DNA of 64,000 nt, taken from assembly GCA_001704065.1 (NCBI GenBank), contig LHBX01000008.1, positions 62,001 through 126,000 on the forward strand, in the 5' to 3' direction. Origin of the DNA: Pelagibacteraceae bacterium GOM-A1. Lineage in GTDB: Bacteria > Pseudomonadota > Alphaproteobacteria > Pelagibacterales > Pelagibacteraceae. Positions 6,451 through 43,874 of the stretch are shown here, piece after piece. The notes under the pieces were generated by a model that ran no database searches, was not told where the DNA came from, and saw only the letters and a list, made by a program, of their open reading frames with translations. The translations under genes and the position numbers were made by a program. Every line of letters begins with the position of its first letter. The stretch's first letter is position 1.

Positions 6451-7874
6451 TGACTAAAGCTTTTACACCTAATATCAAATCTAAAAGAGGAAAGGACTTA
6501 ACAAAATACGTTGCTAACTTTGTCCACAAAACAAAATTTAAAAATATTCCAAAAGAAGTTGTTGAGTTAGCAAAAAAACATATTTTGGATGGTTTTGGTT
6601 TAGCACTATCAGGTTCTGTTGCAAGAACAGGTAATTACTTATTTGCACATATCAAAAAAAGTTCAGCAAAAGGGAAGGCAACAGTTATTGGTTCAAAAAT
6701 GAAGGTTCCAACTCACTTTGCAGCTTTGGCAAATGGTGTAGGAATACATTCTGACGATTATGATGATACACAGTTAGCCGTAGCAAAAGATAGGGTTTAT
6801 GGGCTATTAACACATCCTACTGCACCTTGCTTGCCAAGCGCTTTTGCGGAAGGTGAAGTAAATAAAATTAATGGAAAAGATTTTTTAAACTCATATTTAA
6901 TTGGTGTAGATGTAGAATGTAAAATATCTGAAGCCATGTCTCCACGTCATTATCAACATGGTTTTCACTCAACAGCAACCTGTGGAACTTTTGCTTCTGC
7001 TTCTGCTGCAGCTAAAATTAGAAAATATGATCATAACAAAATTTTAAGATCTTTAGGGATTGCGGCCTCTCTTAGCGCTGGATTAAGAGAAAATTTTGGA
7101 ACAATGACAAAACCACTGCACGCAGGTAGAGCGGCAGAGAGTGGAGTGATAGCTTGCGATTTAGTAAGATATGGGTGGTCTTCAACTGATAAAATTTTAG
7201 AATCTCCTAGAGGTTTCTTTCAAGCTCATGGAGGTGGTTACGATATAAACGCGTTAAAAGGTAAACTTGGAAGACCATGGACATTTAAATCTCCAGGCAT
7301 TTCTATTAAACCTCATCCTTGCGGTTCTTTAACCCATCCTGGGATGACAAAGATGTTAGAGTTAATTAACAAGTATGACATTAAGCATGAGCAAGTAGTT
7401 AAAGTAGATGTTGGCACAAACCATAATATGCAAAATGCTTTGATACATCATCAACCAAAAAATGAGTTTCAAGCTAAATTTAGTATGGAGTATTCTATGG
7501 CAATACTTTTAATTGATAGAAGAGCATACATTCCTGAATATCAAGATAAAAGAATCAATAAATCTGATGTTCAACAAATGCTTAAAAAAGTGAACTTTTA
7601 TAAAAACAAAATAGCTGAAGCTGCAGGCTACGATAAAATGACAACTATAATAGACATATATTTAAAAAACGGAAAAAAAATATCTGGAAGAGGTGATTTT
7701 GGAAAAGGTAGTCCTGCAATACCAATGACTTACGATGAAGTTGCAGATAAGTTTCTTGGTTGTACAGAATTTGCTAGATGGCCTTTATCTAAATCTAAAA
7801 AAATTATTGAAATAGTAAGGAACTTAGAAAAAGTTAAGGATATTAGAATATTAGGAAAGTTATTATCAAAATAG
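6450..7874 (+). CDS. MmgE/PrpD family protein (paralogue linked to the TTT transporter)
   Basis: A 474-aa member of the MmgE/PrpD fold, which includes 2-methylcitrate dehydratase and cis-aconitate decarboxylase. Conserved family motifs are DDYDDTQ plus LTHPT near residues 100-120, HGFHSTATCG near 170, KPLHAGRAAESG near 225 and IKPHPCGS near 286; these supply the histidines and lysines lining the active site. It overlaps tctA and faces a second family member (9895-11397), which resembles standard PrpD better. I infer it processes the acid imported by TctABC; the reaction (dehydration, decarboxylation or isomerisation) is not determined. Confidence 0.85.
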   Translation: MTKAFTPNIKSKRGKDLTKYVANFVHKTKFKNIPKEVVELAKKHILDGFGLALSGSVARTGNYLFAHIKKSSAKGKATVIGSKMKVPTHFAALANGVGIHSDDYDDTQLAVAKDRVYGLLTHPTAPCLPSAFAEGEVNKINGKDFLNSYLIGVDVECKISEAMSPRHYQHGFHSTATCGTFASASAAAKIRKYDHNKILRSLGIAASLSAGLRENFGTMTKPLHAGRAAESGVIACDLVRYGWSSTDKILESPRGFFQAHGGGYDINALKGKLGRPWTFKSPGISIKPHPCGSLTHPGMTKMLELINKYDIKHEQVVKVDVGTNHNMQNALIHHQPKNEFQAKFSMEYSMAILLIDRRAYIPEYQDKRINKSDVQQMLKKVNFYKNKIAEAAGYDKMTTIIDIYLKNGKKISGRGDFGKGSPAIPMTYDEVADKFLGCTEFARWPLSKSKKIIEIVRNLEKVKDIRILGKLLSK

Positions 7875-8999
7875 TTATCTTTGATTTAAAAGCATAACTT
7901 TTCGATATTTGCTGCCTTTGTATTTAGCTAATGGTCTTATTAATTTATTAGATGAATGTTGCTCCATTATATGAGCTGACCAACCAGTAATCCTTGAAAT
8001 TACAAAAATTGGTGTAAAGAAATCTGTATCAAAACCCATTAAATGATAAGTAGGTCCTGTTGGGTAATCTACGTTTGGATGAATATTTTTTTTACTAATC
8101 ATTACTCTTTCAACAATATCGTAAATCTTTAAAAACTTTTTATCTTTTTTAATTTTAGCAACTTTTTTGAAATACTCTTTCATGGTTGGAACTCTAGAGT
8201 CTCCACTCTTATAAACTCTGTGCCCAAAACCCATCACAACCTCTTTTTTCTTTAATGCATTATTGATCCATTTTAAGGCATTCTCAGGTTTTTTGATTTT
8301 ATTCATCATATGCATAACTTCTTCATTGGCTCCACCATGCAATGGTCCTTTTAAACTAGCTATAGCACCTGTTATAGCACCATGAATATCAGACAAACTA
8401 CTTGTTATAGTTCTAGCTGTAAAAGTTGAAACATTAAAACTGTGTTCAGCATATAAAATTAAAGATACATCAAATGCTTTTACGATTTCTTTTTGAGGAA
8501 CCTTTCCAAAACACATATAAAAAAAGTTTTCTGCAAAAGTCAGTTCTTTTTTTGGTTTAATAATCTTTTTACCTTTTCGAATTCTATAAAACGCTGCTAA
8601 AGCAGTTGGAGTTTTCGCTAAAATTCTTAAAGCTTTTCTTGTATTTGCTTCTTTAGAATTATCTGTAGTTTCTTTGTCTTCCAATCCCATAACACTTACT
8701 GCTGTTCTAGCAACGTCCATCGGATGAGATTTTTTTGGCATATGTTTAATTATTTCGTAAAGATTTTTAGATAAATCTCTATGTCCTCGTTCAATTTTTT
8801 CAAATTGTCTTAGTTCAATACTATTTGGTAAATCGCCTTTTAAAATAAGATATGCAGCTTCTTCGAATCTACAAAATTCACACAGATCTTGAACAGCATA
8901 ACCCCTATAAGTTAATGAGTTAATTTCAGGCATAACCTTAGAAACTTCTGTTTCATCAACAACAATTCCTAATAAACCTTTTTTTACTTCTTCACTCAT
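7875..8999 (-). CDS. prpC: 2-methylcitrate synthase / citrate synthase family
   Basis: Citrate-synthase fold, 374 aa, the shorter form typical of 2-methylcitrate synthases. The catalytic residues lie in GPLHGGANEEVM (His), GFGHRVYK (His) and MGFDTDFFTPIF (Asp). It would condense propionyl-CoA with oxaloacetate. The assignment to PrpC rather than the TCA-cycle enzyme rests on its place in a prpC-prpB-prpD unit. It is the last gene of the minus-strand unit and directly abuts the convergent MmgE/PrpD gene without any intergenic base. Its start overlaps the prpB stop. Confidence 0.9.
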   Translation of the reverse strand: MSEEVKKGLLGIVVDETEVSKVMPEINSLTYRGYAVQDLCEFCRFEEAAYLILKGDLPNSIELRQFEKIERGHRDLSKNLYEIIKHMPKKSHPMDVARTAVSVMGLEDKETTDNSKEANTRKALRILAKTPTALAAFYRIRKGKKIIKPKKELTFAENFFYMCFGKVPQKEIVKAFDVSLILYAEHSFNVSTFTARTITSSLSDIHGAITGAIASLKGPLHGGANEEVMHMMNKIKKPENALKWINNALKKKEVVMGFGHRVYKSGDSRVPTMKEYFKKVAKIKKDKKFLKIYDIVERVMISKKNIHPNVDYPTGPTYHLMGFDTDFFTPIFVISRITGWSAHIMEQHSSNKLIRPLAKYKGSKYRKVMLLNQR

Positions 9000-9895
9000 T
9001 ATTCGTGTCCCTCTGTACTAAAATTATATATCTTTTCGTCCAAAGAGTTGTATTTTTCGTACTCAACTAGATCATACAATCTTTTTCTGGTTTGCATCTT
9101 ATCTATAATATTATTTTGATGTCCATCCGCAAAAATGGCACGTAGACCATCCTCAACACTTTTCATTGCTAATCTTTGTGTAGTAACTGGATAAATTACA
9201 ATATTATAACCAAGCTCTTCTAATTTTTTAAAGTCTAACAACTTCGATTTACCAAACTCAGTCATATTTGCTAAAAGATAACAATCCAGTGATTTTCTAA
9301 CTTTTTCAAATTCAGCTTCGTCTTTTAATGCTTCTGGAAAAACAATTTCTGCACCAGCATCAATATAAGATTTGCAACGATCAATCATTTTATCAATACC
9401 TTCTACACTTTTAGCATCAGAACGTGCAATGATTTTAAATTGTTTGTCTGATCTTGCTTCTACACATTCTTTAATTTTTTTTATCATATCATCTTTTGAT
9501 ATCAATTCTTTATTATCTAGATGGCCACATCTTTTCTGTTCTATCTGATCTTCTAAATGAATTGCTGAAATACCAAAATTTTCAAATGTTTGAACAGTTT
9601 CTTTGCAAGATTTAAAACCTGTATCGACATCAACAACTGTTGGAAGATTTGTAACACGTGCAATTTGCTTTGATCTGTTACTGACATCATTAAGAGTTGT
9701 TAATCCTATATCGGGATAACCCAAATCATTAGACATAACACCTCCAGATACATAAACTCCATCATATCCAATCTCTTCAATAACTTTTGCTGTTAACGGA
9801 TTATATGCACCTGGTATTCTTAAAATTTTATTTGATTTTAGTTTATTATCTAAATCAATTCTTTTCTCTTCAGGTTTTTTTTCAACAAAGTGCAC
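8999..9895 (-). CDS. prpB: 2-methylisocitrate lyase (isocitrate lyase/PEP mutase family)
   Basis: A 298-aa TIM-barrel enzyme that splits 2-methylisocitrate into pyruvate and succinate. Visible are the substrate region GVYVSGGVMSND near residue 45, metal ligands in VVDVDTGF near 90, and the lyase signature EQKRCGHL near 121-128 with its catalytic cysteine. Length matches PrpB rather than longer AceA. It overlaps prpC downstream and prpD upstream by single bases, giving one transcript of the methylcitrate cycle. Confidence 0.92.
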   Translation of the reverse strand: MHFVEKKPEEKRIDLDNKLKSNKILRIPGAYNPLTAKVIEEIGYDGVYVSGGVMSNDLGYPDIGLTTLNDVSNRSKQIARVTNLPTVVDVDTGFKSCKETVQTFENFGISAIHLEDQIEQKRCGHLDNKELISKDDMIKKIKECVEARSDKQFKIIARSDAKSVEGIDKMIDRCKSYIDAGAEIVFPEALKDEAEFEKVRKSLDCYLLANMTEFGKSKLLDFKKLEELGYNIVIYPVTTQRLAMKSVEDGLRAIFADGHQNNIIDKMQTRKRLYDLVEYEKYNSLDEKIYNFSTEGHE

Positions 9896-11397
9896 TAGAA
9901 TATTCCTTTTTTATTATTAGATTTTAAGTATCTTCTACTTACTTCAATATTTAGTTTTGTAAGCTGATTATTTTTTAATTTTTTTAAATTTTGAACATCT
10001 TTTAAAAATCTATCACTTTCTTTTTTAGAAATAATATTTTCTGTTAAAATTTTAAATTTATTTATATAATCTTTTCTTTCAAAAGGTCTTTTACCGTAAG
10101 GATGAGCATCTGCTCTTTCTAATTCCTCAATAATTTTTTTCCCATTATTTAATGTTACTATAACCTTTGCACCAAAAGATTTCTTTTTTGGATCAGGATC
10201 ATGGTATTTCTTTGTCCATTTTTTATCCTCATGAGTTTTAATTGATCTCCATATTTTAATTGTACTTTTTTTGTTAGCTCTTTTTTTAGTATAAGACTTT
10301 ACATGATGCCAATCTGCATCTTCTAAAGCTACTGCAAAAATATACATTATTGAGTGATCTAAAGTTTCTCTACTAGCATTCGGATCCATTTTTTGTGGAT
10401 CATTAGCTCCAGTCCCTATTACATAATGCGTATGATGACTTGTATATATATCTATTTTTTTAATTGTATTTAAATTATCAATTTTTTTATTAAGTGCTTT
10501 TGCAATATCAATTAATGCTTGAGCTTGATATTCTGCAGAATATTCTTTTGTATATGTTTCGAGAATGGCTTTCTTTTCTTCGTTCTTTTTAGGCAAAGGA
10601 ACAAAATATTTAGCATTTTTTCCATCTAATATTCTTGCAATTACACTATCTTCACCTTCATAAATAGGACTTGGAGCTCCTTCACCTCTCATCGTTCTAT
10701 CTACAGCTTCAATTGCCAATTTTCCTGCATGAGCTGGAGCATACGCCTTCCAACTTGAAATCTCACCTTTTCTTGATTGTCTTGTTGAAACACTCACATG
10801 TAATGCTTGTTGAACACCTTGATAAATAGTTTCTGTATTTAATTTTAACATAGATCCAATACCAGCAGCAACACTTGGTCCCAAGTGAGCGATATGATCA
10901 ACTTTGTGTTTATGAAGACAAATAGCTTTTACAAGATTAACTTGAACTTCATAAGCAGTTATAACTCCTCTTAATAAATCATTTCCATTTTTTTTTAATT
11001 GTTGTGCCACTGCTAAAAGAGCAGGAATATTATCACCAGGATGGCTGTAATCAGCCGCTAGAAATGTATCATGAAAATCTAATTCTCTAACAGCAGTTCC
11101 ATTTGCCCACGCAGCCCATTCACAATCAAATTTAATTTTTGAATTTATGCCAAAAAGATTAGCTCCATTTTTCCTAACATGTTTTTTTGCCATTTCTCTT
11201 GCAGATATTACAGGTCTTCTATTTAAGGAAGCTATAGCAACAGAAGCGTTATCAATAATTCTATTAATAACCATTTCTATTGAATTTTTATTTAATTTAG
11301 CATTATCACTTGCTATCTCTGCTATTTTCCAAGCAAGCTGTTTCTTCTTTGGAAGATTTATTTTTGATGGATATACTTTAATTGTATGCAATAACAA
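9895..11397 (-). CDS. prpD: 2-methylcitrate dehydratase
   Basis: A 500-aa MmgE/PrpD enzyme converting 2-methylcitrate to 2-methyl-cis-aconitate. Family features include ELDFHDTF and the HPGDN motif (near residues 110-125), the [11 protein letters not shown] segment near 178 and the [15 protein letters not shown] lysine/histidine motif near 220. It is first in the prpD-prpB-prpC unit, so the cycle would run in the order C, D, aconitase, B. No AcnD/PrpF pair is nearby, consistent with PrpD doing the dehydration. It is distinct from the 474-aa paralogue at 6450. Confidence 0.9.
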
Positions 11398-11450
11398 AAT
11401 AACTCCTAATTTTCGATTTTGTTTTAATAGTTAAATTAAATTAATCAATA

Positions 11451-12131
11451 TTAAAGATATTGAGATACAATTTTTTCAATACCTACAAAGTCTTTTATTA
11501 AGTGATTATGATAAATTTCATCAATATTTTTTTCAGTATATCCATCCTCTAATAAAATCATTGGAATATCTGCTGCTTTAGCTGCATTTGCATCCGACTC
11601 ACTATCGCCAATCATAATTGATTTATTTTTACTACCATCTAAAATTTCTATGATTGTTGTTATATGTCTTGGATCAGGTTTACAATAATCAAAAGTATTA
11701 TAACCAGCAACATACTCGAAGTAATCATATATCCCAATTTTTTTTAAAAGATCTACTGCAAGATGTTCCGTTTTATTCGTACATACAGCCATTGATATAT
11801 TTTTTTTTTTACACCAATTTAGAAAATCTTTTACACCAGGCATCAGAGTACTTTCATTTAAAATATTTTTTCCATAATAAGAAATAAATTCATCTGTCAT
11901 TTCATTTTTAATTTTCTCATTAATCGAAGTTAATTCTTTTTTGGCCTGGCTCCATATAGATCTACCAATCATTACCCCAGCTCCTTGACCAACTGTATTT
12001 TTAAGTTCATCAAGAGATTTTGTGGGGTATCCAAATTTCTTCATGACATGGTTATGAGCAAGCATTAGATCAGGTGCTGTGTCTACTAACGTGCCATCTA
12101 AATCAAAAAGAACTGTGAATTTTTGTGTCAT
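11451..12131 (-). CDS. gph: HAD-family phosphatase, phosphoglycolate phosphatase type
   Basis: A 226-aa haloacid-dehalogenase hydrolase. Motif I is DLDGTLVDTAPDL (nucleophile D at about 10), motif II is CTNKT, and motif III/IV is the lysine in KPDP plus GDSESDANAAKAA. The C1 cap lies between motifs I and II. The DTAPDL and helical cap fit Gph-type phosphatases, which remove phosphate from 2-phosphoglycolate, but substrate specificity in this family cannot be read from sequence. It is monocistronic and divergent from the acetyltransferase at 12201 with 69 bp between. Confidence 0.82.
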   Translation of the reverse strand: MTQKFTVLFDLDGTLVDTAPDLMLAHNHVMKKFGYPTKSLDELKNTVGQGAGVMIGRSIWSQAKKELTSINEKIKNEMTDEFISYYGKNILNESTLMPGVKDFLNWCKKKNISMAVCTNKTEHLAVDLLKKIGIYDYFEYVAGYNTFDYCKPDPRHITTIIEILDGSKNKSIMIGDSESDANAAKAADIPMILLEDGYTEKNIDEIYHNHLIKDFVGIEKIVSQYL

Positions 12132-12200
12132 TTAAAAAGTATTAATAAGAAATAAATTGTGAATTAATTAAATCAATACTCAGTTATATACAACTATCTA

Positions 12201-12809
12201 ATGAATAGTCAAAATTTACAAAATAAACTTAGAGATAAATTTTTAAAAAAAGGTGTCAAAATGAAGGGGCCTGAGACAGTTTTTTTTTCTAAAGATACTA
12301 AAATTGGAAAAAATGTAGAGATAGAACCTTATGTAGTGTTTGCCGATAAAGTGAAAATAGGAAACAATGTAAAAATTTTATCTTTCTCTCATCTTGAGGG
12401 TGTTAAAATAGATAATGATGTAAGTGTAGGTCCATATGCACGTTTAAGACGTGGAACAAAAATAAAATCTGGATCAAAAATTGGAAATTTTGTTGAGGTA
12501 AAAAAATCTACAATAAATAAAAATTCTAAAGTTAATCATTTATCATATATTGGAGATACACTAGTGGGGAAGGAAGTTAATATTGGAGCTGGAACAATAA
12601 CTTGTAATTACGATGGAAGAAAAAAAAGTAAAACAAATATTAAGGATAAAGTATTTGTAGGTTCAAATACATCTTTAGTAGCACCAGTTACTCTGAATGA
12701 AAAAAGTGTCATAGGTGCAGGTTCAGTAATTACTAAAAATGTAAGCAAAGGATCGTTGGCATTAACAAGATCAAATCAAAAAGAAAAGAAAAATTACAAA
12801 AGGAAATAA
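12201..12809 (+). CDS. glmU: Standalone GlmU-type glucosamine-1-phosphate acetyltransferase
   Basis: A 202-aa left-handed beta-helix protein corresponding to the C-terminal half of bifunctional GlmU. Hexapeptide repeats start near residue 30 ([13 protein letters not shown]). The GlmU acetyltransferase signature [28 protein letters not shown] spans residues 113-140, with the catalytic histidine in NHLSY. The N-terminal uridylyltransferase domain of GlmU is missing, and no remnant of it lies upstream within the short divergent gap. It sits 6 nt before glmS, so UDP-GlcNAc synthesis is the likely pathway. The symbol is used for the homologous half only. Confidence 0.82.
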
Positions 12810-12815
12810 TAAGCA

Positions 12816-14636
12816 ATGTGTGGAATAGTTGGAATTACAAGCTCCAAAGAGGTTACTCCCAGAATTATAAGTTCATTAAAAAAACTTGAGTATAGAGGCT
12901 ATGACTCTGCAGGTTTAGCAACTCTTTCAAATGGAAATATAAATGAGGTAAAATGTGAGGGTAGAGTAGACGCTTTAGAGAAAAACATTATACAAACTAA
13001 AATATCTGGCTCTATTGGTATCGGACATGTTAGGTGGGCAACTCATGGAAAACCTAGTTCAATAAATGCACATCCTCATTCATCAGAAGATGTATCTGTC
13101 GTTCATAATGGTATAATTGAAAATTCAACTATTCTAAAAAAGTTATTAGAAAATAAAGGTTATAATTTTAAGTCTCAAACAGACACAGAAGTAATAGTTC
13201 ATTTGGTAACTGATTATTTAAAAAAAAATAACCTTAAAAATACAATTATAAAAGTTTTAAAAAAATTACACGGTAGTTTCGCGCTAGGAATAATATTTAA
13301 AGACCAACCAGACTTAATAGTTGGGGCAAGAAGAGGCTCTCCTCTTGCAGTTGGTTATGGTCCAAATGAACACTATCTTGGCTCAGACTCTTATGCATTA
13401 AAGTCAATGACTAATAAAATTTCATATTTAAATGATGGAGAATTTTGCATATTAAAAAAAGATCAAGTCGAATTTTTTGATGCTGATGGAACCAAAGTAA
13501 ACAAAAAAATTTTAAATCTTTCTAAAGATGATCAGAATTATGAAAAAGGAGATTACAAATATTATATGGCCAAAGAAATAGACGAGCAGCCAATTACTCT
13601 AAAAAATTGTGTAAATGAGTACATCGACAAACACAATAAAGAGATAAATATTTATAATTTTCCGTGGAAAATAAGTGAAATTTCATCTGTAGTTTTGATT
13701 GGATGCGGAACAGCATATCACTCATGCCTTGTGGCGAAATATTGGTTTGAGCAAAATACTAGTTTCGATGTTAGTGTTGATATAGCTTCAGAGTTTAGAT
13801 ATCGAAAAATTAAATTTAAAAAAGATTGTCTATATGTTTTTGTTTCTCAATCTGGAGAGACTGCAGATACATTTGCAGCATTAGATTTGTGCAAAAAGAA
13901 TAATGTTAAAACTTGTGCAGTAGTAAATGTTGTTGAAAGTTCAATTGCAAGAGACGCTGATCTAGTTTTGCCTATCCATTGTGGTCCAGAGGTTGGTGTT
14001 GCATCAACAAAGGCTTTCTTAGGACAAATGTTAGTTCTTTATTTATTATGTACTAAGCTTTCTTATGAACAAAAATCAATTAATAAAAAGGATTACCAAA
14101 AAAAGATAAAAGATTTACTGTCTTTATCTAAATCTGCAAAAAATACATTAAATATTGAAGATAAAATTCAAACTCTTGGAAAAGATTTTGCTAATTCTAA
14201 AGGATCAATGTTTCTAGGTAGAGGCTATTCATATCCAATTGCACTAGAAGGTGCTTTAAAACTAAAAGAGCTTGCTTATGTTCATGCTGAAGGTTATCCA
14301 GCAGGGGAAATGAAACATGGGCCTCTTGCACTTATAGAGGAAGGTATGCCGGTAGTAGTAATTGCTCCAAGAGATGAGCATTACAAAAAAACTATTTCAA
14401 ATATGCAAGAAGTCATATCTAGAGGCGCAAAAGTTTTACTAATAACAAATAAAAGTACTGATGAAATTTATTCAGAAAATATCTGGGAGCAAATAGAAGT
14501 CGATGCCATTTCTGATGAACTTATTCCTTTTTTGACCTCTATTCCTTTACAAAAGTTAGCTTATTACTCTGCACTAGATAAAGGATACGATATAGATAAA
14601 CCAAGAAACTTAGCTAAATCTGTCACTGTTGAATAA
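12816..14636 (+). CDS. glmS: Glutamine-fructose-6-phosphate aminotransferase (isomerising)
   Basis: First step of UDP-GlcNAc synthesis: fructose-6-P plus glutamine to glucosamine-6-P. The protein (606 aa, normal) begins MCGIVGI, giving the N-terminal nucleophile cysteine of the glutaminase domain (residues 1-220), followed by two SIS domains: GCGTAYHS and SQSGETADT near 300-350, and GRGYSYPIALEGALKLKE near 470. The C-terminal DKPRNLAKSVTVE is the classical GlmS tail. It is transcribed with the standalone acetyltransferase. No glmS ribozyme-like leader is present. Confidence 0.97.
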   Translation: MCGIVGITSSKEVTPRIISSLKKLEYRGYDSAGLATLSNGNINEVKCEGRVDALEKNIIQTKISGSIGIGHVRWATHGKPSSINAHPHSSEDVSVVHNGIIENSTILKKLLENKGYNFKSQTDTEVIVHLVTDYLKKNNLKNTIIKVLKKLHGSFALGIIFKDQPDLIVGARRGSPLAVGYGPNEHYLGSDSYALKSMTNKISYLNDGEFCILKKDQVEFFDADGTKVNKKILNLSKDDQNYEKGDYKYYMAKEIDEQPITLKNCVNEYIDKHNKEINIYNFPWKISEISSVVLIGCGTAYHSCLVAKYWFEQNTSFDVSVDIASEFRYRKIKFKKDCLYVFVSQSGETADTFAALDLCKKNNVKTCAVVNVVESSIARDADLVLPIHCGPEVGVASTKAFLGQMLVLYLLCTKLSYEQKSINKKDYQKKIKDLLSLSKSAKNTLNIEDKIQTLGKDFANSKGSMFLGRGYSYPIALEGALKLKELAYVHAEGYPAGEMKHGPLALIEEGMPVVVIAPRDEHYKKTISNMQEVISRGAKVLLITNKSTDEIYSENIWEQIEVDAISDELIPFLTSIPLQKLAYYSALDKGYDIDKPRNLAKSVTVE

Positions 14637-35285: not shown

Positions 35286-36056
35286 ATGGTTAATCCATTT
35301 ATAATTTCAGATAAAAATTTTAAATCATTAAAAATAAAAAAAGCAGTTGAAAAAAAAATAAAGTCATATTCTTTAATAAAATCTAATTTAATAATTGTAA
35401 TTGGAGGTGATGGTTTCATGCTTCAAACATTAAAAAAATATAACAAATATAAAAAACCGTTTTATGGAATAAATTCAGGAAACTATGGTTTTCTTATGAA
35501 TAAATTTTCAGAAAAAACAAATTATAAAAATCTAAATAAAGGGAGATTAGTCTCAATATCACCCCTAGAGATGATAGTAAAAAGTAAAACAAACTCTGTT
35601 AAAAAATCTATAGCAATAAATGAAATTTCAGTTCTTAGACAAAGCAGACAGACAGCTTCATTAACCATTTCAAATGGCAAAAAACAAATTATTAAACATT
35701 TAATCTCTGATGGTGTTTTAGTATCAACACCAGCTGGGAGTACAGCTTATAACCTTTCAGTTCATGGTCCTATCCTCAGTATAGATTCTAAGAAACTATC
35801 GATATGTCCTATAAGTGCTTTTAGACCAAGAAGATGGAAAGGAAAAATAGTTAGTGATAAATCTAAAATTGTAATAAAAAATCTAAATCCTAAAAAAAGA
35901 CCTATAAGCGCTGTAGCTGATAACATTGAGGTTAGAAATGCAAAATCAATATCAATAAAAACGAATAAACAAATTAAGTTTAACTTAATATTTGATAAAA
36001 ATAGAAGCCTTCAAAACAAAATTAAAATTGAACAATTAAGAAATGATATTAAATAA
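35286..36056 (+). CDS. nadK: NAD kinase
   Basis: A 256-aa ATP-NAD kinase making NADP+. IIVIGGDGFMLQTLKKY (GGDG near 40-43), GINSGNYGFLMN near 65, AINEISVLRQS near 118 and TPAGSTAYNLSVHGPIL near 160 are the family motifs. The ATG at 35286 is the first in-frame methionine outside the tRNA. The best Shine-Dalgarno, GAGGG at 35273-35277, lies in the acceptor stem of tRNA-Leu. The stop codon TAA (36054-36056) is the first three bases of the left attachment repeat. Confidence 0.94.
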   Translation: MVNPFIISDKNFKSLKIKKAVEKKIKSYSLIKSNLIIVIGGDGFMLQTLKKYNKYKKPFYGINSGNYGFLMNKFSEKTNYKNLNKGRLVSISPLEMIVKSKTNSVKKSIAINEISVLRQSRQTASLTISNGKKQIIKHLISDGVLVSTPAGSTAYNLSVHGPILSIDSKKLSICPISAFRPRRWKGKIVSDKSKIVIKNLNPKKRPISAVADNIEVRNAKSISIKTNKQIKFNLIFDKNRSLQNKIKIEQLRNDIK

Positions 36057-36102
36057 TGGTGCCCCCGCACGGACTCGAACCGCGGACCTATTGATTACAA
36101 AT
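36054..36102. repeat. attL: 49-bp direct repeat of the tRNA-Thr 3' part
   Basis: The 49 bases are identical to 43,796-43,844 and reproduce tRNA-Thr from its CCA end through the T-arm, variable loop and anticodon stem-loop side. The remaining 5' half is replaced by unrelated sequence, so this is a duplicated core, not a functional tRNA. It also supplies the nadK stop codon. Confidence 0.95.
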
Positions 36103-36619
36103 TTATAGATCCAAAAAAAATTCCTCTCATTGCCTAGACTTTACAATACTTTTAAGCAGGTGTGAATCCATTAAATATCTTTTGACTACACATTGACTAC
36201 ACCCAGAATAAATTACCGCTGATTAATCAACAATACCTGCATTTTCTTTTTTAGAAAAAATAAATTACTTCATGCAAATAATTGAGTCTTTACGCGGTTT
36301 TTATTTTTAATTTTCTACAGCTAAAAGACTCGGCTCAGTTGTATTTGCTGTCGCAAATGCTTTCATAGATGCCCCTAGAATTGACTCTGACGGGGCATGA
36401 GTCCTTGGTACCAAGAGGGGTCCCACAAGCTCTCTGCGTTTGAATTTGGACTCTTAATCGATAGTTCCTGCACAGTTTACCCTTTAGATTTTTTGTCATG
36501 TATATGCAGGATGGATATCCTTATTCACACCAAATACCTTTTTAAAAAAAATTGGAGTAGGTTCACAAGCTCTAAAAATTTTCTGGAAATTTTTTTTCAA
36601 TCGTCCTATAAAATCCTTC
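36103..36619. other. Noncoding left end of the element, with palindromes
   Basis: No convincing coding frame. It contains the left arm-type repeats (36,182-36,201), an inverted repeat ATGCCCC/GGGGCAT (36,369-36,375 and 36,392-36,398, 16-nt loop), and a perfect 12-bp palindrome CTTGGTACCAAG (36,404-36,415). The stretch 36,340-36,480 is clearly richer in GC than its surroundings. It could be a structured RNA, a packaging site or part of an origin. Confidence 0.55.
36182..36201 (+). promoter_or_regulatory. Left arm-type integrase sites (TTGACTACA x2)
   Basis: TTGACTACA occurs at 36,182-36,190 and 36,193-36,201, an 11-bp period, 80 bp inside attL. The same doublet with the same period and orientation lies 90 bp inside attR. 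Symmetric placement of such doublets beside att cores is what arm-binding sites of heterobivalent tyrosine integrases look like. Confidence 0.6.
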
Positions 36620-36829
36620 ATGTCTAGATCGTACTTAACTGCACTTGGTAGAGAAAATGCTAAAGAATTTTATGAAGACAATAGGGTGATTGATAGATGT
36701 ATTTTCTGTGGACAGCACAAAGAGATCAAAACCACCATGACAATTTATTTTTCTGAATTTGAGACTAATACAGGACCAATCTGTAAGGGCTGCTATTCAG
36801 CAAATGCTAAGACAGCTCAAACAAGCTAA
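36620..36829 (+). CDS. Small zinc-ribbon-like protein of the element
   Basis: A 69-aa ORF, the only plausible plus-strand gene of the element. It has two CxxC pairs, CIFC (near residue 28-31) and CKGC (near 55-58), separated by about 24 residues containing ETNTGPIC. This looks like a zinc ribbon similar in layout to the ClpX-type zinc finger, though homology cannot be shown here. The ribosome site is weak. It is convergent with the main operon across a noncoding gap. Confidence 0.5.
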   Translation: MSRSYLTALGRENAKEFYEDNRVIDRCIFCGQHKEIKTTMTIYFSEFETNTGPICKGCYSANAKTAQTS

Positions 36830-37277
36830 AAGGTACAGGAATCAAGGTTCATGGACAATGGCTCATGGAACGAGCTAACTGAGCTTCCGTAATCAGGGCG
36901 AACATCCACTCAGTTAACTCAACAGAAAACCCAAAAAGTATTACTAATTTTTGGAATTATTTTTCTAACATAAAATTTTACAAAAAGAATCCAATTAGTG
37001 TTGCTGAGTAAAATTATTTTTTGAACTGTAATAACACGGGGTCTTAGATTAACACCTTACCTATGTTTGTCAGCAAACAGATACATGCTAATGCAGGTGC
37101 ACCCGATTTTTGAAGGTAATTAGTAGGGTATCTATTAATAGCATAGTGTTGAGTAGGTTGAGAGATTTATTTTTTTTATTTTTCAAAACTTTTCTCAGCT
37201 ACTCAGCTTACTCAGCAAAAAAAGAAAAGATAGAAGGGCACCCACCTGAACACCGACCACCCCCCTGCAGGGGCTGT
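36830..37277. other. Noncoding region with CTCARC iteron-like repeats and hairpins
   Basis: About 450 bp without a credible gene. It holds CTCAGC at 37,194, 37,202 and 37,211 (steps of 8 and 9 bp), ACTCAGTTAACTCAAC at 36,908, the reverse form GCTGAGTAA near 37,013, and GTTGAGTAGGTTGAG near 37,149. An 8-bp inverted repeat TAACTGAG/CTCAGTTA pairs 36,876-36,883 with 36,909-36,916. A perfect palindrome CCCCTGCAGGGG lies at 37,262-37,273. Position next to the primase operon suggests a replication origin or repressor-binding cluster. Confidence 0.5.
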
Positions 37278-37472
37278 TTATTTAACTTTAGTAAATTTGC
37301 CGAGCTGTTGAGCGGGACTATAAACAGTTGACTCTACATTAAGCTGCTTACGCAGCAAATCTATCGTGTTCTTCATCCTCTGCTTCTCATCTAATAGGTC
37401 ATCTATAACCCGATACAGGGTATCTTCTGGCTTCCTATTTTTTTTAAATATTTTTTTTATTGTTTTAATCAT
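37278..37472 (-). CDS. Small helical protein downstream of the primase-helicase
   Basis: A 64-aa ORF starting within the primase-helicase stop (4-nt overlap at 37,469-37,472), which supports it being real. The N-terminus is lysine-rich (IKTIKKIFKKNRK), followed by an amphipathic helix with LLDEKQRMKNTIDLLRKQL. No family recognised. It may be an accessory replication protein or regulator. It is the last gene of the operon, stopping just beside the CCCCTGCAGGGG palindrome. Confidence 0.6.
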   Translation of the reverse strand: MIKTIKKIFKKNRKPEDTLYRVIDDLLDEKQRMKNTIDLLRKQLNVESTVYSPAQQLGKFTKVK

Positions 37473-39775
37473 AATTTGAATCGCTTCTTCTCTTTGGTTT
37501 TTTCATCTACTTCAATAGGTCTATAACTACCTTTTTGCTCATAGATTTGACCAAGCTGTGATGCTGTGCATGCTCTAAGTTTTTCTACCCAATGATCTTT
37601 AGCTGTATCTGGTTCCTCTGGTGGTAGTAAATATACTCTTGGTCTTGTTCCATCTTTAGTCAACATTTGTTTAGTAGGTACGAAGCTGTTGTGATACCAT
37701 GATGTACAACGTGACTTGCACCATGCAATCACTACATCCAATGCACCATCCTGTTTGAATGCTGTGCATGTTCTATGCAGGTCCTGTGCTACAACCATAA
37801 AATTAAAAACTCTAAATTCATTAGATCCACTTCTTTTGAATGGACCAGTCTCTGCTTCTCTATGCAGGTCTAACCATTTGTATATTGGATGCTCTGATAG
37901 TTTAGCAAGTTCTCTCATGTCATCAGTTATTGGTGCTCTCTCTTTGTACAAATCAGGATCATCTATTTTCAATGTTGATAAATGATGCATCAGGAATCTT
38001 GCTCCATCATTACTAGCCCAATCCCATCTTGGCTTCCAATAATCTCTTAGTCTAACTTTATCTGTTAGCTTCAATACATAATATCTTCTTTCATCATCAG
38101 CAATGTTCATGCAATCTTCATGGTTAGAAATTAAAATAAAGTTGCATGTATTTGGATAGTCAAATGATCTTCTAAATTTTTCTTCAATATGAATATATGG
38201 ATCTGTTATTAAATCTTTTATTTCTTCTGACAGCTCCTGCTTCTTATTATAATTTTTAGATAAAAATACTTCATTGATAACCGCAAACTGTGTTCCAATA
38301 ATCCATGAATTAAAATTACTAGTCACACTTTTGTATTTAAGATTAGGTCTAAAATTATTCTTTCCATATATTCTATGCAGCAGCTCCGTTATCCAACCTT
38401 TACCAATTCCTTTTTTTGGTGAGATCCATAGAGGAGCCCACATAGCTTTAGTTCCCTGATTCTGGTAGCAATAAGCAAAATATTGCTCCATGTTATTGGC
38501 TCTATTTTCATCATCAAATACATCAATTAAGGTATCTTTCCAGATAGTCATATCACCCTGCTTTGGTTTGATCGTAGGACCTCTGTATCGATTAACTATT
38601 GGTACACCTGCAACATCATTCAATCCCCTAGGTCTTTGTGGTTGATATTCATATGAGTTAGCTCTTTTAAATACTTCTGGCTCTTGTTCTAACAGCCATG
38701 TAGATGGTTTTTTTCTTTCAACTTTTAGATAACCATATTGATTGTCAAATGATCTTAATGGTGTGAGCACATCTTTATTAAGATCCAACATCTCATCTAA
38801 TTCAGCTATATAAAAAATATTTTCTGACAGCTCTAGTAATCTTTCAGCTTTACTTCTGTCAGCTTCCTGTAATTTTTTCTCTGAAAACTTTTCCCATACA
38901 TCCTTGTAATTTGGTGTGACCTCAGTATAGGGCAGGGCTTCAAATTGTAATGTGTGTGCATCTGTGTTCGAATTTTTTGGAACAGGATCTGCTAAATCCC
39001 ACTTTTCTGGAAATTCATCTGGTAATGTCACAAAATGAATTCTATCTAAATCTATCCCTATTTCTTGGTGCAGGTGCATTGCAAGTTTATGCATTGCTAC
39101 ATGACCTTCATCATCATTGTCAGGAAATAAAGTTATTCTGGTAAATGCATTTAATATGGACCAATCATTTTTAAGTACAGCTTTGGCACCGCCAGCCCAT
39201 GTAGTCACACAATCTAATTTTTTTCTCTTATATGCTTCTGCAGCCTTTTCACCTTCTACAACAACTATATTTGCGGAAGTTCTGGTTTGAGAAATATCTC
39301 TGAGATTGTATATGCATCTAGGTTCGGGCATGCCTCTGGACATCCATCTTTCATAATTATTAATCTTATCTTTCCATTTGCTATGCTGAAAAAATCTTTT
39401 TTCTTTGTTTGTTTCGTCCTTATACTGTCTCTCAACAACAAACTGAGTATATCCGCTCGTGTCAGTATAGACGTAGTGTGTGTCATATCCTTTTCTTTGT
39501 TTTTCTCGAAAGCGTCTTTCATTGTTATCTGTAAAGTCCAATGATGTTGGTACTTCATAATATCCCCCTGATGTATGTTTTAGATTGTTATATGTTTTTT
39601 TATTAATAGGTCTTCTTACAGCTCCATTACCTTTGCCATGATAATCTTTATAGTGATGCTCACATCCAAAACAGTAGCCATGACCATCTTCATAGACAGC
39701 TACATTATCTGGACTACCACATTCCCTGCATGGTGCATGTTCTATAAATTTTGAATTTGTGCCCTGATCTAACAT
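37469..39775 (-). CDS. Primase-helicase fusion (CHC2-type zinc finger, TOPRIM, DUF5906/D5-like helicase)
   Basis: A 768-aa replication protein. The N-terminal zinc ribbon has C16, C19, C35 and C38. A TOPRIM core follows with VVVEGEKAAEAYK near 170 and LFPDNDDEGHVAMHK near 213. The C-terminal half has a Walker A-like SPKKGIGKGWI near 450 and the Walker B-like AVINEVFL about 45 residues later, as in the DUF5906/D5-like helicases of phages and satellites. It could prime and unwind the element's own origin after excision. Closest functional analogies are phage P4 alpha and T7 gp4, by domain logic only. Confidence 0.85.
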   Translation of the reverse strand: MLDQGTNSKFIEHAPCRECGSPDNVAVYEDGHGYCFGCEHHYKDYHGKGNGAVRRPINKKTYNNLKHTSGGYYEVPTSLDFTDNNERRFREKQRKGYDTHYVYTDTSGYTQFVVERQYKDETNKEKRFFQHSKWKDKINNYERWMSRGMPEPRCIYNLRDISQTRTSANIVVVEGEKAAEAYKRKKLDCVTTWAGGAKAVLKNDWSILNAFTRITLFPDNDDEGHVAMHKLAMHLHQEIGIDLDRIHFVTLPDEFPEKWDLADPVPKNSNTDAHTLQFEALPYTEVTPNYKDVWEKFSEKKLQEADRSKAERLLELSENIFYIAELDEMLDLNKDVLTPLRSFDNQYGYLKVERKKPSTWLLEQEPEVFKRANSYEYQPQRPRGLNDVAGVPIVNRYRGPTIKPKQGDMTIWKDTLIDVFDDENRANNMEQYFAYCYQNQGTKAMWAPLWISPKKGIGKGWITELLHRIYGKNNFRPNLKYKSVTSNFNSWIIGTQFAVINEVFLSKNYNKKQELSEEIKDLITDPYIHIEEKFRRSFDYPNTCNFILISNHEDCMNIADDERRYYVLKLTDKVRLRDYWKPRWDWASNDGARFLMHHLSTLKIDDPDLYKERAPITDDMRELAKLSEHPIYKWLDLHREAETGPFKRSGSNEFRVFNFMVVAQDLHRTCTAFKQDGALDVVIAWCKSRCTSWYHNSFVPTKQMLTKDGTRPRVYLLPPEEPDTAKDHWVEKLRACTASQLGQIYEQKGSYRPIEVDEKTKEKKRFKL

Positions 39776-39777
39776 AA

Positions 39778-40050
39778 CTAATTATTGGTTGATTCACCTA
39801 TGAAGTTTTTGAAATTTTTTTCTATGTTGGCTGTTTCAACATCATCTGAATGTATTTTGTCCATGCACTTATCTAAGTCATTTTTTAATTTTCTGTTTGT
39901 TGCACCTAGTGCTGCTATGGTGTTTTCCTTCTCTTGGATCTTGCTTCGAAGTGCTGTAATTTCTGTAGTTAAAGTGCCTATAATATCTGTGTTTCTATCG
40001 TTAATAGATTGCTGTGTTTCAAATGCATATTGTAGGTTATCTTTGTTCAT
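39778..40050 (-). CDS. Coiled-coil small protein
   Basis: A 90-aa protein with a central heptad-like stretch (IIGTLTTEITALRSKIQ, then ENTIAALGATNRKLKND) and an acidic tail. It overlaps the preceding gene by 4 nt and ends 2 nt before the primase-helicase, so it is part of the operon. No family recognised. A role as a multimerisation or adaptor protein for replication is possible but not shown. Confidence 0.65.
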   Translation of the reverse strand: MNKDNLQYAFETQQSINDRNTDIIGTLTTEITALRSKIQEKENTIAALGATNRKLKNDLDKCMDKIHSDDVETANIEKNFKNFIGESTNN

Positions 40051-40688
40051 ATAGGTCTCTTTAGCTCTGGAATTCCACCTCTACCAAATTGTCTATCGTG
40101 CATGTCCTGCTGCATCTTCAATCTTCTATCTGCAGCTTCTTTAATAATTTGCTCTAAAGGTTTTCTTTCTTTTTGTGGTCTTGGTTCAGGAACAGGATCT
40201 GAAATTACAGGATCTGGTTTTTGTTTCATAATCTCTAAAGTTTGTTGTGCAATAACTTTTGGATCTGGAGTCTTTTTTGGAAAATGAATATCTTTGTATT
40301 TATCAACCTTAGTTTTTAGTTCAGCCATTTGTTTAACTGTAGCCTGCTTAGGATAGGGTTTATCTTGATATGAAAATCTTCTCTTTAATGCTGCTTCTGA
40401 AACTACTTCACCTGTTTCATTGTCTACAATGTAAGGACCACCATCAAATTTATTGTGTGCATTAATTAACTGTTTTGTAAAATGATCTTTAACTACAGGT
40501 CTTTGCTTTGTGGTAATTTTATCTTCACCTAGTTCTTTTGTTTTATTAACTATCTTTTGTTCAAATGGATTTATCTTGTTGTCCTGGACAAATGTCCTGA
40601 ATGCACCTTTAGAATCTGCTTTAGGTCTTGTAAGATATTCCATGAGTTCTTTTCTGTGCTGAGGGTTGTTGTCGTTATATCTACTCAT
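40047..40688 (-). CDS. Unknown proline/lysine-rich element protein
   Basis: A 213-aa protein, charged and largely lacking hydrophobic segments. Residues 140-175 are proline-rich (PDPKVIAQQTLEIM, DPVISDPVPEPRPQ), and the C-terminus EAADRRLKMQQDMHDRQFGRGG resembles scaffold- or structure-associated tails only in composition. It is joined to both neighbours by 4-nt overlaps. I do not recognise a family. It may be disordered and act as an adaptor. Confidence 0.65.
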   Translation of the reverse strand: MSRYNDNNPQHRKELMEYLTRPKADSKGAFRTFVQDNKINPFEQKIVNKTKELGEDKITTKQRPVVKDHFTKQLINAHNKFDGGPYIVDNETGEVVSEAALKRRFSYQDKPYPKQATVKQMAELKTKVDKYKDIHFPKKTPDPKVIAQQTLEIMKQKPDPVISDPVPEPRPQKERKPLEQIIKEAADRRLKMQQDMHDRQFGRGGIPELKRPI

Positions 40689-41119
40689 TTTTTATTACTC
40701 GCAATATGTTCCCTCTCAAATTCATCTGCCAATTTTTTATCAATCTCAGTTATGCGTCCGTAATGATCTGTGTAATCTTCTCTTAATTCTGCACTTTGTT
40801 CGTACATGTTGTTAAGTTGATTAACTCTATGATTATCAAATTTCTTTTTTCTAGCATCAGCCCAAAACCCATTAGCTTTTAATGATGCAATGCATTTCTG
40901 CATTCTTTGGTTTAGTGTGTAGATAGCTTCATCCTTATTTCTCTGGAACCACTTATCAAACTCTTTCAGGTTATATAAAACAATGCTGCTATCAGGAGCT
41001 GTAAAGCAAATGTCACTTTCAAATCTTTTATCTTTTCTAAACTCTCTTAACTTCTTTAAAGCAATCCCATACATGGATGCTATTTCTCTTTCCCTGTAAT
41101 TTAATCTTTCAGGTTTCAT
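40685..41119 (-). CDS. Putative DNA-binding protein with N-terminal HTH-like segment
   Basis: A 144-aa protein. The N-terminal part (YREREIASMYGIALKKLREFRKD, then SSIVLYNLKEFDKWFQRN) follows the pattern of AlpA/MerR-like winged HTH domains: a helix-turn-helix, a beta hairpin and a closing helix. The C-terminal half is highly charged and helical. It sits in the operon with 4-nt overlaps on both sides. It may be a regulator or replication accessory factor; no exact family is claimed. Confidence 0.62.
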   Translation of the reverse strand: MKPERLNYREREIASMYGIALKKLREFRKDKRFESDICFTAPDSSIVLYNLKEFDKWFQRNKDEAIYTLNQRMQKCIASLKANGFWADARKKKFDNHRVNQLNNMYEQSAELREDYTDHYGRITEIDKKLADEFEREHIASNKK

Positions 41120-41400
41120 GGCTTACGCAGGTCCTGCTTATAGGTAGAAATTAAACCACCTGATTTTAAAGTTTTTCTTTTTAGATCAATATCTGATTTG
41201 ATGAAGTCAATGAATGAACCTGAATATCCTTCCTTCTGCATTTCCTTAAATTGCTCTCTCAGGGTTTCAATTAATTCCTGAGTAATATCCATTTCAATTT
41301 CTGCAGGATCTTTGTAATCACCTGCTAATTTTATTAATTCTTTTCTTACAGCTTTATCACCTTTTGCAGGCATTCTCTTATCAACATTATTTTTCTTCAT
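41116..41400 (-). CDS. Unknown acidic/basic small protein of the element
   Basis: A 94-aa protein with a central helix rich in Glu/Gln (EMDITQELIETLREQFKEMQKEG) followed by SGSFIDFIKSDIDLKRKTLKSGG. Overlaps of 4 nt at both ends argue that it is translated. Small terminase-like proteins can look similar, but there is no clear DNA-binding motif, so no function is assigned. Confidence 0.6.
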   Translation of the reverse strand: MKKNNVDKRMPAKGDKAVRKELIKLAGDYKDPAEIEMDITQELIETLREQFKEMQKEGYSGSFIDFIKSDIDLKRKTLKSGGLISTYKQDLRKP

Positions 41401-41618
41401 GCTGTTGCTACCTCAACTTTGTTGATTGTTTTAAAATGCTTCTCTAGATCCTCAATGTCATACAGGACTATTCCACCTTTTCTTTTCTTAGGCTTCCTTC
41501 CAATGATAACGTAGGGCAATCCAAAACCATGGGATCTTTGTTTTGCTAAAGTACCTTGTTTTATTCCGTAGATTTCTTCTACTTCACTAGGTCTAAGATA
41601 TTTTCTATTAATGTTCAT
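41397..41618 (-). CDS. AlpA/MerR-like helix-turn-helix protein (excisionase-type)
   Basis: A 73-aa protein with the HTH_17 layout: YLRPSEVEEIYGIKQGTLAKQRSHG as the helix-turn-helix, PYVIIGRKPKKRKGGIVLY as the wing strand and DIEDLEKHFKT as the closing helix. Such proteins act as excisionases or as AlpA activators of satellite operons. It is the first gene of the main operon, behind a 150-nt gap. Its neighbour at 40,685 has a related N-terminal pattern. Confidence 0.78.
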   Translation of the reverse strand: MNINRKYLRPSEVEEIYGIKQGTLAKQRSHGFGLPYVIIGRKPKKRKGGIVLYDIEDLEKHFKTINKVEVATA

Positions 41619-41768
41619 AATTTTTTACACCTGCAATTAAGACCATTGAAGACATTTGTTTTACCCGTTAGCTCTTACATTGGCGGCTAACTTTGCAGAT
41701 AGAAAATCTATAATTGATATAATTTATATAATCGATTGTTTAAGAGATACTGAGGAGCTACTAAGTAT

Positions 41769-42173
41769 CTATTTGATAAACTCTACTAACCATGCAGGAT
41801 GTCTTTGCAATCTATGTTGCAGCTTTGGTGTAAGTCTTTTTATTCTAGTTCTTAATAGTTTATTTGATTGCCAGATTTTTTTACATGCATTGAAATGCTG
41901 TGTTTCAGTTTTTTTATTGTACCTGTCTTTGTGAAAAATATTATAGGCAGCAACATAACTTTTATTTTTTGAATTAACTAAACCCCAGATTTTACCATCT
42001 TGTGTTTTTTCAGTTCTGTTTAGTAGAGCTACCACTACGTTAACTTTCCAAGCTGTTCTCTCAGGAGCTACAGTTGACTTCCTATCATATACAGCTTTGA
42101 CCATGTTCAGTACTGCTTCTGGTTTAGCTTTTTTACTATTAAGATATTTTATAAGTTCGCCCCACTTATTCAT
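41769..42173 (-). CDS. Unknown basic protein between integrase and operon
   Basis: A 134-aa protein, strongly basic toward the C-terminus (LLRTRIKRLTPKLQHRLQRHP). It lies 51 nt after the integrase in the same orientation and may share its transcript. No family recognised. The basic nature suggests nucleic-acid binding; a recombination-directionality factor is one possibility. Confidence 0.6.
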   Translation of the reverse strand: MNKWGELIKYLNSKKAKPEAVLNMVKAVYDRKSTVAPERTAWKVNVVVALLNRTEKTQDGKIWGLVNSKNKSYVAAYNIFHKDRYNKKTETQHFNACKKIWQSNKLLRTRIKRLTPKLQHRLQRHPAWLVEFIK

Positions 42174-42224
42174 GCTCCAAGATTAATGCATCAAGGAACA
42201 TGAAACAATAGAACAGAATAGAAA

Positions 42225-43580
42225 CTAAATAATTTCTTTCAGCTTTGGTTGCACCTGTATTTCAAATGCTTTGTTTTTACCTTCAATAACATCCTCATGC
42301 TGAGTCTTAGCATACTTACTAGCCTGCTTAACTGTGATCCCTAAAGTATCAGCAACAAGTTTTAAATTACCTGTTTTTTTAAGCAGCAATGTTGCATGGG
42401 TGTGTCTAGTAGCATAGTGTTTTAATTTTCTCTTTACACCTGCTAATAATAAAACCTTCTTCCATGTCTTATCTACATCTGTAAGATAAGGTGTTGTGCA
42501 GGTCTTACCATTTGAGCTTTTAGATCCATAAGCTCTGGAAGGAAATACATAATCAAATCTTGGATCTGTTGGTGGGTAATAAAATTTAGATGCAGGGTTA
42601 TTCAATCTATCTTTTTTTATAGTTTGAATCACATCTAATTCATCAGCTCCCATACCAAAATCTGTTTTTTTATTTTTCTTAGATGTTTTAGTTCTCTCTA
42701 ATTTTAGAGTAGGGACTAACCCATCATTAATATTGGACCATTGGATCTTACTAGCTTCTGATCTAGTTCTTCTAGATGAATATATTTGATAAGCAATCAG
42801 GGCACATGAAACAACAGGAATATTAAATTTTCTATAATGAGATTTTAAGAATCTTCCCGTCTTCTGGTCCTTCTGTATTAAGATGGATCTAACTCTATTT
42901 AATTCATCTTCTCTAAGAAAATCTAAATATTCTTTTTCTTCAAATTTAGCCTCAGCTTTTATCTTACATGGTTGATTATTAGTTATTCCTCTTTCAATCC
43001 AGATATTGAAAAACATTCTTAAATATTCGATTAATCTATTAGCCTGAGTAGGTGTTCTAGCACCTACAGTTTGATGAAGTTTTATTATCTGATTTGTAGT
43101 TATTTTAGATAGTTTAATATGCTGAATATCATCTACCTGATTAAGGATAGCTCTAATATTTGGGTCCTTAGTTTTTCTAAAAATATAAGATCCAAAAATA
43201 TTTTTTATTCCCTGAATAGAAGATGCAGCATATCTTGCAGGAGTTAGAATAGTTTTGTAGCTGTCCTTTAACTGCTCACCAAGTGTCAGCTCACCTTTAA
43301 ACTTCTGTCTAATCTCATAAGGATCTTGACCCATGAATATATCATTAGCAATCTTCTTAGCTCTAGTGACAGCTTTCTGAATACCTAATTCATAGTAAGA
43401 TCCAATTCTAATTTTAACTGAATTTTTTCCTTTAGGTCTATATTGATAATAGAAAATTTTTACCTTTGATGGGTACTTCCTAACAATTAATAATAGACCA
43501 CTAACATTAGGCATATAGAAATATTGATCTATATCTGTGTGTTTTATTTTATTGATGTAAGCATCTGTTAGTTTAATCAT
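42225..43580 (-). CDS. int: Tyrosine-type site-specific integrase (P4-like)
   Basis: A 451-aa tyrosine recombinase. The N-terminal DUF4102-like arm-binding domain has the pattern GLLLIVRKYPSKVKIFYYQY, then RIGSYYELGIQKA; a SAM-like core-binding domain follows. The catalytic domain shows box I arginine in SSRRTRSEASKIQW (near 270), box II in HYATRHTHATLL (near 393) and the nucleophile tyrosine in QASKYAKTQ (near 425). It lies 215 bp from attR beside the intact tRNA-Thr, as expected. An RBS AAAGG precedes the ATG. Its promoter carries a GTTC-N7-GTTC box. Confidence 0.95.
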   Translation of the reverse strand: MIKLTDAYINKIKHTDIDQYFYMPNVSGLLLIVRKYPSKVKIFYYQYRPKGKNSVKIRIGSYYELGIQKAVTRAKKIANDIFMGQDPYEIRQKFKGELTLGEQLKDSYKTILTPARYAASSIQGIKNIFGSYIFRKTKDPNIRAILNQVDDIQHIKLSKITTNQIIKLHQTVGARTPTQANRLIEYLRMFFNIWIERGITNNQPCKIKAEAKFEEKEYLDFLREDELNRVRSILIQKDQKTGRFLKSHYRKFNIPVVSCALIAYQIYSSRRTRSEASKIQWSNINDGLVPTLKLERTKTSKKNKKTDFGMGADELDVIQTIKKDRLNNPASKFYYPPTDPRFDYVFPSRAYGSKSSNGKTCTTPYLTDVDKTWKKVLLLAGVKRKLKHYATRHTHATLLLKKTGNLKLVADTLGITVKQASKYAKTQHEDVIEGKNKAFEIQVQPKLKEII

Positions 43581-43635
43581 GATATTTTTTCCTTTCTCAT
43601 GTTTTCTGTTTTTATTTTTTTACTACTAATTTAGA

Positions 43636-43663
43636 AAAATAGTTGTTGAGAACAGATACTGAA
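43636..43663 (-). promoter_or_regulatory. Candidate integrase promoter
   Basis: On the minus strand TTCAGT (43,658-43,663) and TATTTT (43,636-43,641) are 16 bp apart, about 56 nt upstream of the integrase ATG. The LexA-type box covers the -35 element and part of the spacer. The match to sigma70 is moderate. Confidence 0.35.
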
Positions 43664-43664
43664 C
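43650..43664 (-). promoter_or_regulatory. LexA-type operator before the integrase
   Basis: Read on the minus strand, GTTCAGTATCTGTTC is an exact GTTC-N7-GTTC, the SOS box known from alphaproteobacterial LexA, 70 bp upstream of the integrase start and overlapping a candidate promoter. It would couple integrase expression to DNA damage. Confidence 0.55.
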
Positions 43665-43686
43665 AGCCAATGGGTATCTTTTTAAA

Positions 43687-43706
43687 TTGACTACAAATTG
43701 ACTACA
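43687..43706 (+). promoter_or_regulatory. Right arm-type integrase sites (TTGACTACA x2)
   Basis: TTGACTACA at 43,687-43,695 and 43,698-43,706, again with an 11-bp period, 90 bp inside attR. Same orientation and spacing as the left doublet. It lies directly upstream of the integrase promoter, so integrase binding could also autoregulate its gene. Confidence 0.6.
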
Positions 43707-43795
43707 AAGATTTCCACATTCGTACAATGTATGTTCTTTGTTGTTCTCATGTTCTATCTTTCTTGAAAGGAAAATTTATTGAATTACTTAGTAAT

Positions 43796-43844
43796 TAATG
43801 GTGCCCCCGCACGGACTCGAACCGCGGACCTATTGATTACAAAT
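43796..43844. repeat. attR: 49-bp direct repeat inside tRNA-Thr
   Basis: Identical to 36,054-36,102. It covers the 3' part of the intact tRNA-Thr gene including the encoded CCA. A perfect 7-bp inverted repeat AATTACT-T-AGTAATT (43,782-43,796) abuts its inner edge. Confidence 0.95.
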
Positions 43845-43874
43845 CAATTGCTCTACCAGCTGAGCTACAAGGGC
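43799..43874 (-). tRNA. tRNA-Thr (TGT)
   Basis: A 76-nt cloverleaf: acceptor GCCCTTG/CGGGGGC with wobble pairs, D-stem GCTC, anticodon stem ATTGA/TCAAT with loop TTTGTAA (anticodon TGT), T-loop TTCGAGT, discriminator A and encoded CCA. It is the integration target, and the gene is left intact. It lies 33 bp downstream of rlmB in the same orientation. Confidence 0.96.

Follow-up and report, generated by a model that had tools for sequence, protein, structure and literature searches.

A GTTC-N7-GTTC box before the integrase gene of a satellite-like SAR11 element is a candidate operator for host LexA

The DNA analyzed here, termed the window, is a stretch of 64,000 nucleotides from the SAR11 bacterium Pelagibacteraceae bacterium GOM-A1. 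It carries a 7.7-kb element (36054-43844) that is inserted at tRNA-Thr and bounded by 49-bp att repeats, with the integrase (int) as its first gene. Beyond the integrase, the same strand encodes in turn a 134-aa ORF, a 73-aa HTH protein of the AlpA type, several small ORFs, and a primase/helicase with DUF5906. These leftward genes are all co-directional, with gaps of 51 bp after int and 150 bp before the HTH gene. Among ten element ORFs scanned against Pfam and PHROGs, none matched a capsid, terminase, or prophage-type repressor family. The element's features are listed below; labels such as L035 mark loci that were compared with the window.

43796-43844, no strand: right att repeat (tRNA-Thr 3ʹ end), 49 bp, identical to 36054-36102; tRNA-Thr occupies 43799-43874.
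43733-43757 (approximate), minus strand: possible excisionase sites, consisting of GAAC repeats AGAACATGAGAACAACAAAGAACAT that lie between the core and the arm sites; L035 and L037 conserve them, and L038 has them in altered form.
43687-43706 (43687 and 43698), no strand: two tandem arm-type repeats TTGACTACA, putative Int arm sites on the int side; the repeat occurs at both element ends and is conserved in L035, L037, and L038.
43650-43664, minus strand: GTTC-N7-GTTC box GTTCAGTATCTGTTC, a proposed operator for LexA at int; exact match, with 15 of 15 bases kept in L035 and L037 and 7 of 8 half-site bases in L038.
42225-43580, minus strand: tyrosine integrase of 451 aa with Arm-DNA-bind_3 and Phage_integrase domains (PF13356, E 4.5e-10; PF00589, E 1.2e-7; PHROG integrase, E 1.5e-21).
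41769-42173, minus strand: 134-aa ORF adjoining int; counterparts at the same place are 39% (L242) and 25% (L035) identical.
41397-41618, minus strand: HTH_17/AlpA-type protein of 73 aa that may be an excisionase or a regulator (PF12728, E 0.003, below the cut-off); conserved in four related elements.
37469-39775, minus strand: primase/helicase of 768 aa, DUF5906 (PF19263, E 1.2e-19; PHROG primase/helicase, E 9.5e-27).
36182-36201 (36182 and 36193), no strand: two tandem arm-type repeats TTGACTACA, putative Int arm sites at the far end.
36054-36102, no strand: left att repeat, a displaced tRNA-Thr 3ʹ end of 49 bp, identical to the right repeat.

The HTH_17 assignment is stronger for the L242 homologue of the 73-aa protein (E 8e-6). 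A 69-aa cysteine-rich ORF (36620-36829) at the element's far end has a 79% identical counterpart in L243 (5323-5529), though the L243 integrase is only 42% identical; L035 and L242 yielded no such ORF. In L243 (G401, 4725-13686), a related tRNA-Thr element, an ORF of 623 aa judged by eye to be a family-A, T7-like DNA polymerase replaces the primase/helicase.

The box upstream of int, on the minus strand at 43650-43664, matches exactly the alphaproteobacterial LexA motif, GTTC-N7-GTTC (PMC3323433), and shares its direct-repeat form. Its end lies 69 bp upstream of the integrase ATG. The preliminary description also had the box overlapping a candidate promoter, a claim that found no support: the search of 43560-43800 recognized no sigma-70-like promoter near the int box (0 found, 1.2 expected by chance). 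The mere number of exact matches was dropped as evidence, because the genome (1.33 Mb, 73 contigs) contains 10 of them versus 22 for a reversed control pattern; the window contains 3 versus 0.98 expected, and at least 3 were reached by 6 of 100 shuffles. Of the 10 matches in the genome, four are not within any ORF, compared with 0.6 expected (non-ORF share 5.7%; P about 0.002), and these four comprise sites upstream of lexA, nrdA, and int and one unexplained site. Because of this intergenic enrichment and the retention of all 15 bases in two further elements, the int box stands above chance. A match without function would suit the genome count, in which exact matches are no commoner than the control, yet it is very improbable for a site conserved at 15 of 15 bases in three diverged elements.

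Other matches were set aside or merely recorded. The third match in the window (2855-2869) falls within the gene adjoining nrdA and was taken as chance. A second box at the start of the AlpA-like gene (41602, one mismatch) is coding sequence, and the protein start differs in L242. An intergenic exact box at G000:C33:47781-47795 (L004) has no adjoining SOS gene; a 139-aa ORF starts 262 bp further on.

The host encodes a LexA protein with both the PF01726 DNA-binding domain and the Peptidase_S24 self-cleavage domain, the first item that the preliminary description had proposed to check. Its statement that the same exact box precedes nrdA was also confirmed, 96 bp ahead of the ribonucleotide reductase large-subunit ORF.

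83-97, plus strand: host SOS box GTTCTATAAATGTTC before nrdA, a reference site; exact match, and relatives carry the same site before nrdA.

A box was likewise expected at recA. It is there, but with one mismatch in this genus, where almost every genome that was read has GTACACATTTTGTTC. All 8 genomes compared retain the lexA box, GTTCTATAAAAGTTC, one of them with a single base change. Inspection of 30 exact matches in six relatives placed the intergenic ones upstream of umuD (3), nrdA (2), and lexA (2); one further match probably lies inside a misread aspS start. The umuD box is known from these relatives, as the umuD of the genome itself is at a contig edge. The host thus uses the code at lexA, at recA with one mismatch, and at other SOS genes, and the comparison outlines a small SAR11 LexA regulon of lexA, recA, umuDC, and nrdAB. 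Infection of SAR11 by the lytic phage HTVC027P raises lexA, recA, umuD, umuC, and nrdA 3.1- to 8.9-fold, with a rise of nrdAB (PMC12753301), and this transcriptome agrees with the regulon inferred from the boxes.

The int box has the GTTC-N7-GTTC code in common with this regulon. It differs in that int is borne by an element and in that the spacer and flanks of the box fit the SAR11 profile less well. The known SAR11 boxes, of the form AGAAC-(AT-rich)-(A)GAACAT, have scores of 18-23 bits. Against a SAR11 LexA profile built on only four genes, the int boxes reach 14.2 bits in the window, 8.2 in L035, and 7.7 in L037, the last two close to background, so that all three fall short of the range of the clade's known sites.

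Related integrases adjoining tRNA-Thr were found in L035 (74% identity), L037/G248 (71%), and L038/G401 (42%). All 15 bases of the box are identical in the window, L035, and L037, whose integrases are 71-75% identical to one another. In L035 and L037, 133-134 bp separate the box from the tRNA, and 49-61 bp separate it from the ATG; across the elements, the box-to-ATG distance varies between 49 and 69 bp, and the box is on the int side, beyond the arm sites. After the arm sites, the longest invariant run of the alignment ends exactly at the box, whereas three-way identity elsewhere is 23%; a run of such length was reached in 0 of 20,000 column shuffles. At the position of the box, L038 carries GTTCCGCGTTTGTAC, in which the half-sites retain 7 of 8 bases and the spacer 3 of 7 (P 0.014). 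Half-sites kept beside a drifted spacer are the pattern expected of a GTTC-N7-GTTC site. Between its core and arm sites, L038 has a further box, GTTCCAGACTCGTTC, which is an exact match. The preliminary description had asked for related int upstream regions to be aligned, and the box proved to be exact in the two closest, a near match in the third, and absent within the 300-bp upstream regions of four distant SAR11 integrases (L039, L234, L237, and L239). Conservation upstream of orthologous genes thus amounts to three exact matches and one near match, drawn from four elements only.

Arm-DNA-bind_3 integrases number only five in 397 genomes of the order, and integrases related to int only a handful among the approximately 800 genomes that the order and genus contributed. 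A class-wide search yielded no new element beyond those known. Viral contigs searched with the arm repeat and the 15-mer gave many chance matches and no related integrase, relatives of int were found in neither IMG/VR nor INPHARED, and IMG/VR held no relatives of the primase. A comparison with pelagiphage integrases via L040 reached enterobacterial phages only. Two side observations concern the compared loci: L035 (1-18142) is a Flavobacteriales-binned contig, probably misbinned, with two integrase modules flanking a SAR11-like tRNA-Thr, and upstream of int in L039 (the integrase of G021, with 34% identity) the arm sites are followed by GTTC-N6-GTTC, which is one base under the LexA spacing.

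The layout would also fit a recombination site, since the box keeps almost the same distance (133-135 bp) from the tRNA and arm sites in all these elements while its distance from the ATG varies. The box might be a site of the element's own 73-aa AlpA/Xis-like protein, acting in the recombination complex or in autoregulation of int, with its likeness to a LexA site coincidental. This is a serious rival, because the box-to-arm spacing is rigid and GAAC/GTTC words occur more often than expected throughout the att region (5 seen versus about 1.1), even if we consider it rather unlikely. The two GTTC half-sites are 11 bp apart, one helical turn, a spacing like that of the direct repeats of excisionases; the stretch from core to arm sites contains three GAAC half-sites; and the AlpA-like protein is conserved throughout the related elements. 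Moreover, the PICMI satellite of Vibrio has a constitutive int and relies on AlpA to trigger excision (PMC10803314). However, the box stands beyond the arm sites, its half-sites face the opposite way to the GAAC repeats and are spaced at 11 bp rather than 8 and 10 bp, and the sharp edges of conservation coincide exactly with the host LexA box.

A GATAC upstream of the box and a GTATC in its spacer (43630-43685, minus strand, and the L035 and L037 counterparts) form a conserved inverted repeat with arms 12-14 bp apart. The conserved block could be read as a promoter or leader element of int, either part of the core promoter or this inverted repeat, without a dedicated GTTC-binding repressor. 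The upstream GATACC and the spacer GTATC are conserved in the three close elements, and L035 has TTGTAG-N17-TATAAT just upstream. This explanation is nevertheless improbable: the fourth element retains the GTTC half-sites and not the GATAC/GTATC arms, and no promoter was called near the int box in the window.

Repression of int by host LexA is the best reading of the box and is partly supported, because LexA is present, recA has a box, and the motif is conserved at related int genes; the three findings that the preliminary description had named as fatal (no lexA, no box at recA, no conservation among related integrase promoters) were not encountered. We favor, with some reserve, the view that host LexA represses int and perhaps the whole operon. 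Of the preliminary description's account, the regulator, the recA box, and conservation stand in support of repression by LexA, whereas the promoter overlap is unsupported; binding and repression themselves are deduced from the DNA.

We infer the course of events as follows, from LexA binding and repression to operon read-through and excision. In an undamaged cell, LexA on the box would keep int silent, and the element would stay in tRNA-Thr. The genes that follow in the same direction (a small ORF, the AlpA/Xis-like protein, and the primase) would perhaps also be silenced; since the leftward genes are co-directional, one operator might govern them all. RecA activated by DNA damage or a lytic phage would lead LexA to cleave itself, and int would then be expressed alongside lexA, recA, umuDC, and nrdA, leading to excision and replication. 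Excision would also require the AlpA/Xis-like protein, and derepression of int alone may not suffice. The element would probably be released upon DNA damage in its host, as during phage attack. Because lytic phage raises the SOS genes of SAR11 (PMC12753301), phage-induced SOS could release it. A further, speculative proposal that we hold to be possible but doubtful is that this satellite-like element uses the host SOS response as a detector of lytic pelagiphage, with LexA cleavage freeing the int operator so that excision and replication come in time for phage carriage. If true, a phage-satellite-like element would time its movement by a stress regulator of the host and not by a repressor of its own, in a bacterial group that ranks among the most abundant in the ocean. 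Together with the infection transcriptome (PMC12753301), this would offer a specific mechanism, open to testing, by which these elements could detect an attacking phage.

In overall makeup, the element resembles the PICMI satellites of Vibrionaceae (PMC10803314), small elements in which int is likewise accompanied by an AlpA-like gene and a DUF5906 primase, and whose gene order is the same. The gene set that marks PICMI (int, AlpA, and a DUF5906/DUF3987 primase) is present, with PF00589 and PF19263 above the cut-off and the AlpA-type HTH_17 weakly matched (E 0.003); a further likeness is that no capsid or terminase family was matched in the SAR11 element. Unlike PICMI, which is inserted adjoining fis in Vibrionaceae, the SAR11 element occupies tRNA-Thr in an alphaproteobacterial host and has no known helper phage. 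PICMI int is reported to be constitutive, and an SOS/LexA link goes unmentioned in PMC10803314.

LexA control is established for integron integrases (Cambray et al. 2011, PMC3108266). In IntI, as putatively here, a tyrosine recombinase gene has a host LexA site in its promoter and is induced by SOS. However, the sites of IntI resemble those of E. coli and have their role in the shuffling of cassettes, whereas the SAR11 element has a putative alphaproteobacterial GTTC-N7-GTTC site, an element integrase of the P4 type, arm sites, and a tRNA target. It is not an integron, which would pair IntI with an attC cassette array: its integrase has a P4-type arm-binding domain, its att site is in a tRNA, and its operon encodes a primase in place of cassettes. 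Direct host LexA control of phage genes is likewise known from GIL01 (PMC4551915) and the CTX phage (as described in PMC3323433). The likeness is that genes of an element are under direct host LexA repression and SOS-induced, as is proposed for SAR11 int; the difference is that GIL01 and CTX are whole phages in which LexA acts at lysogeny promoters, not at the integrase promoter of a satellite-like element. LexA control of integron integrases and of phage genes was thus known, and what would be new, judging from the site and its conservation, is a candidate LexA-controlled int in a satellite-like element of SAR11.
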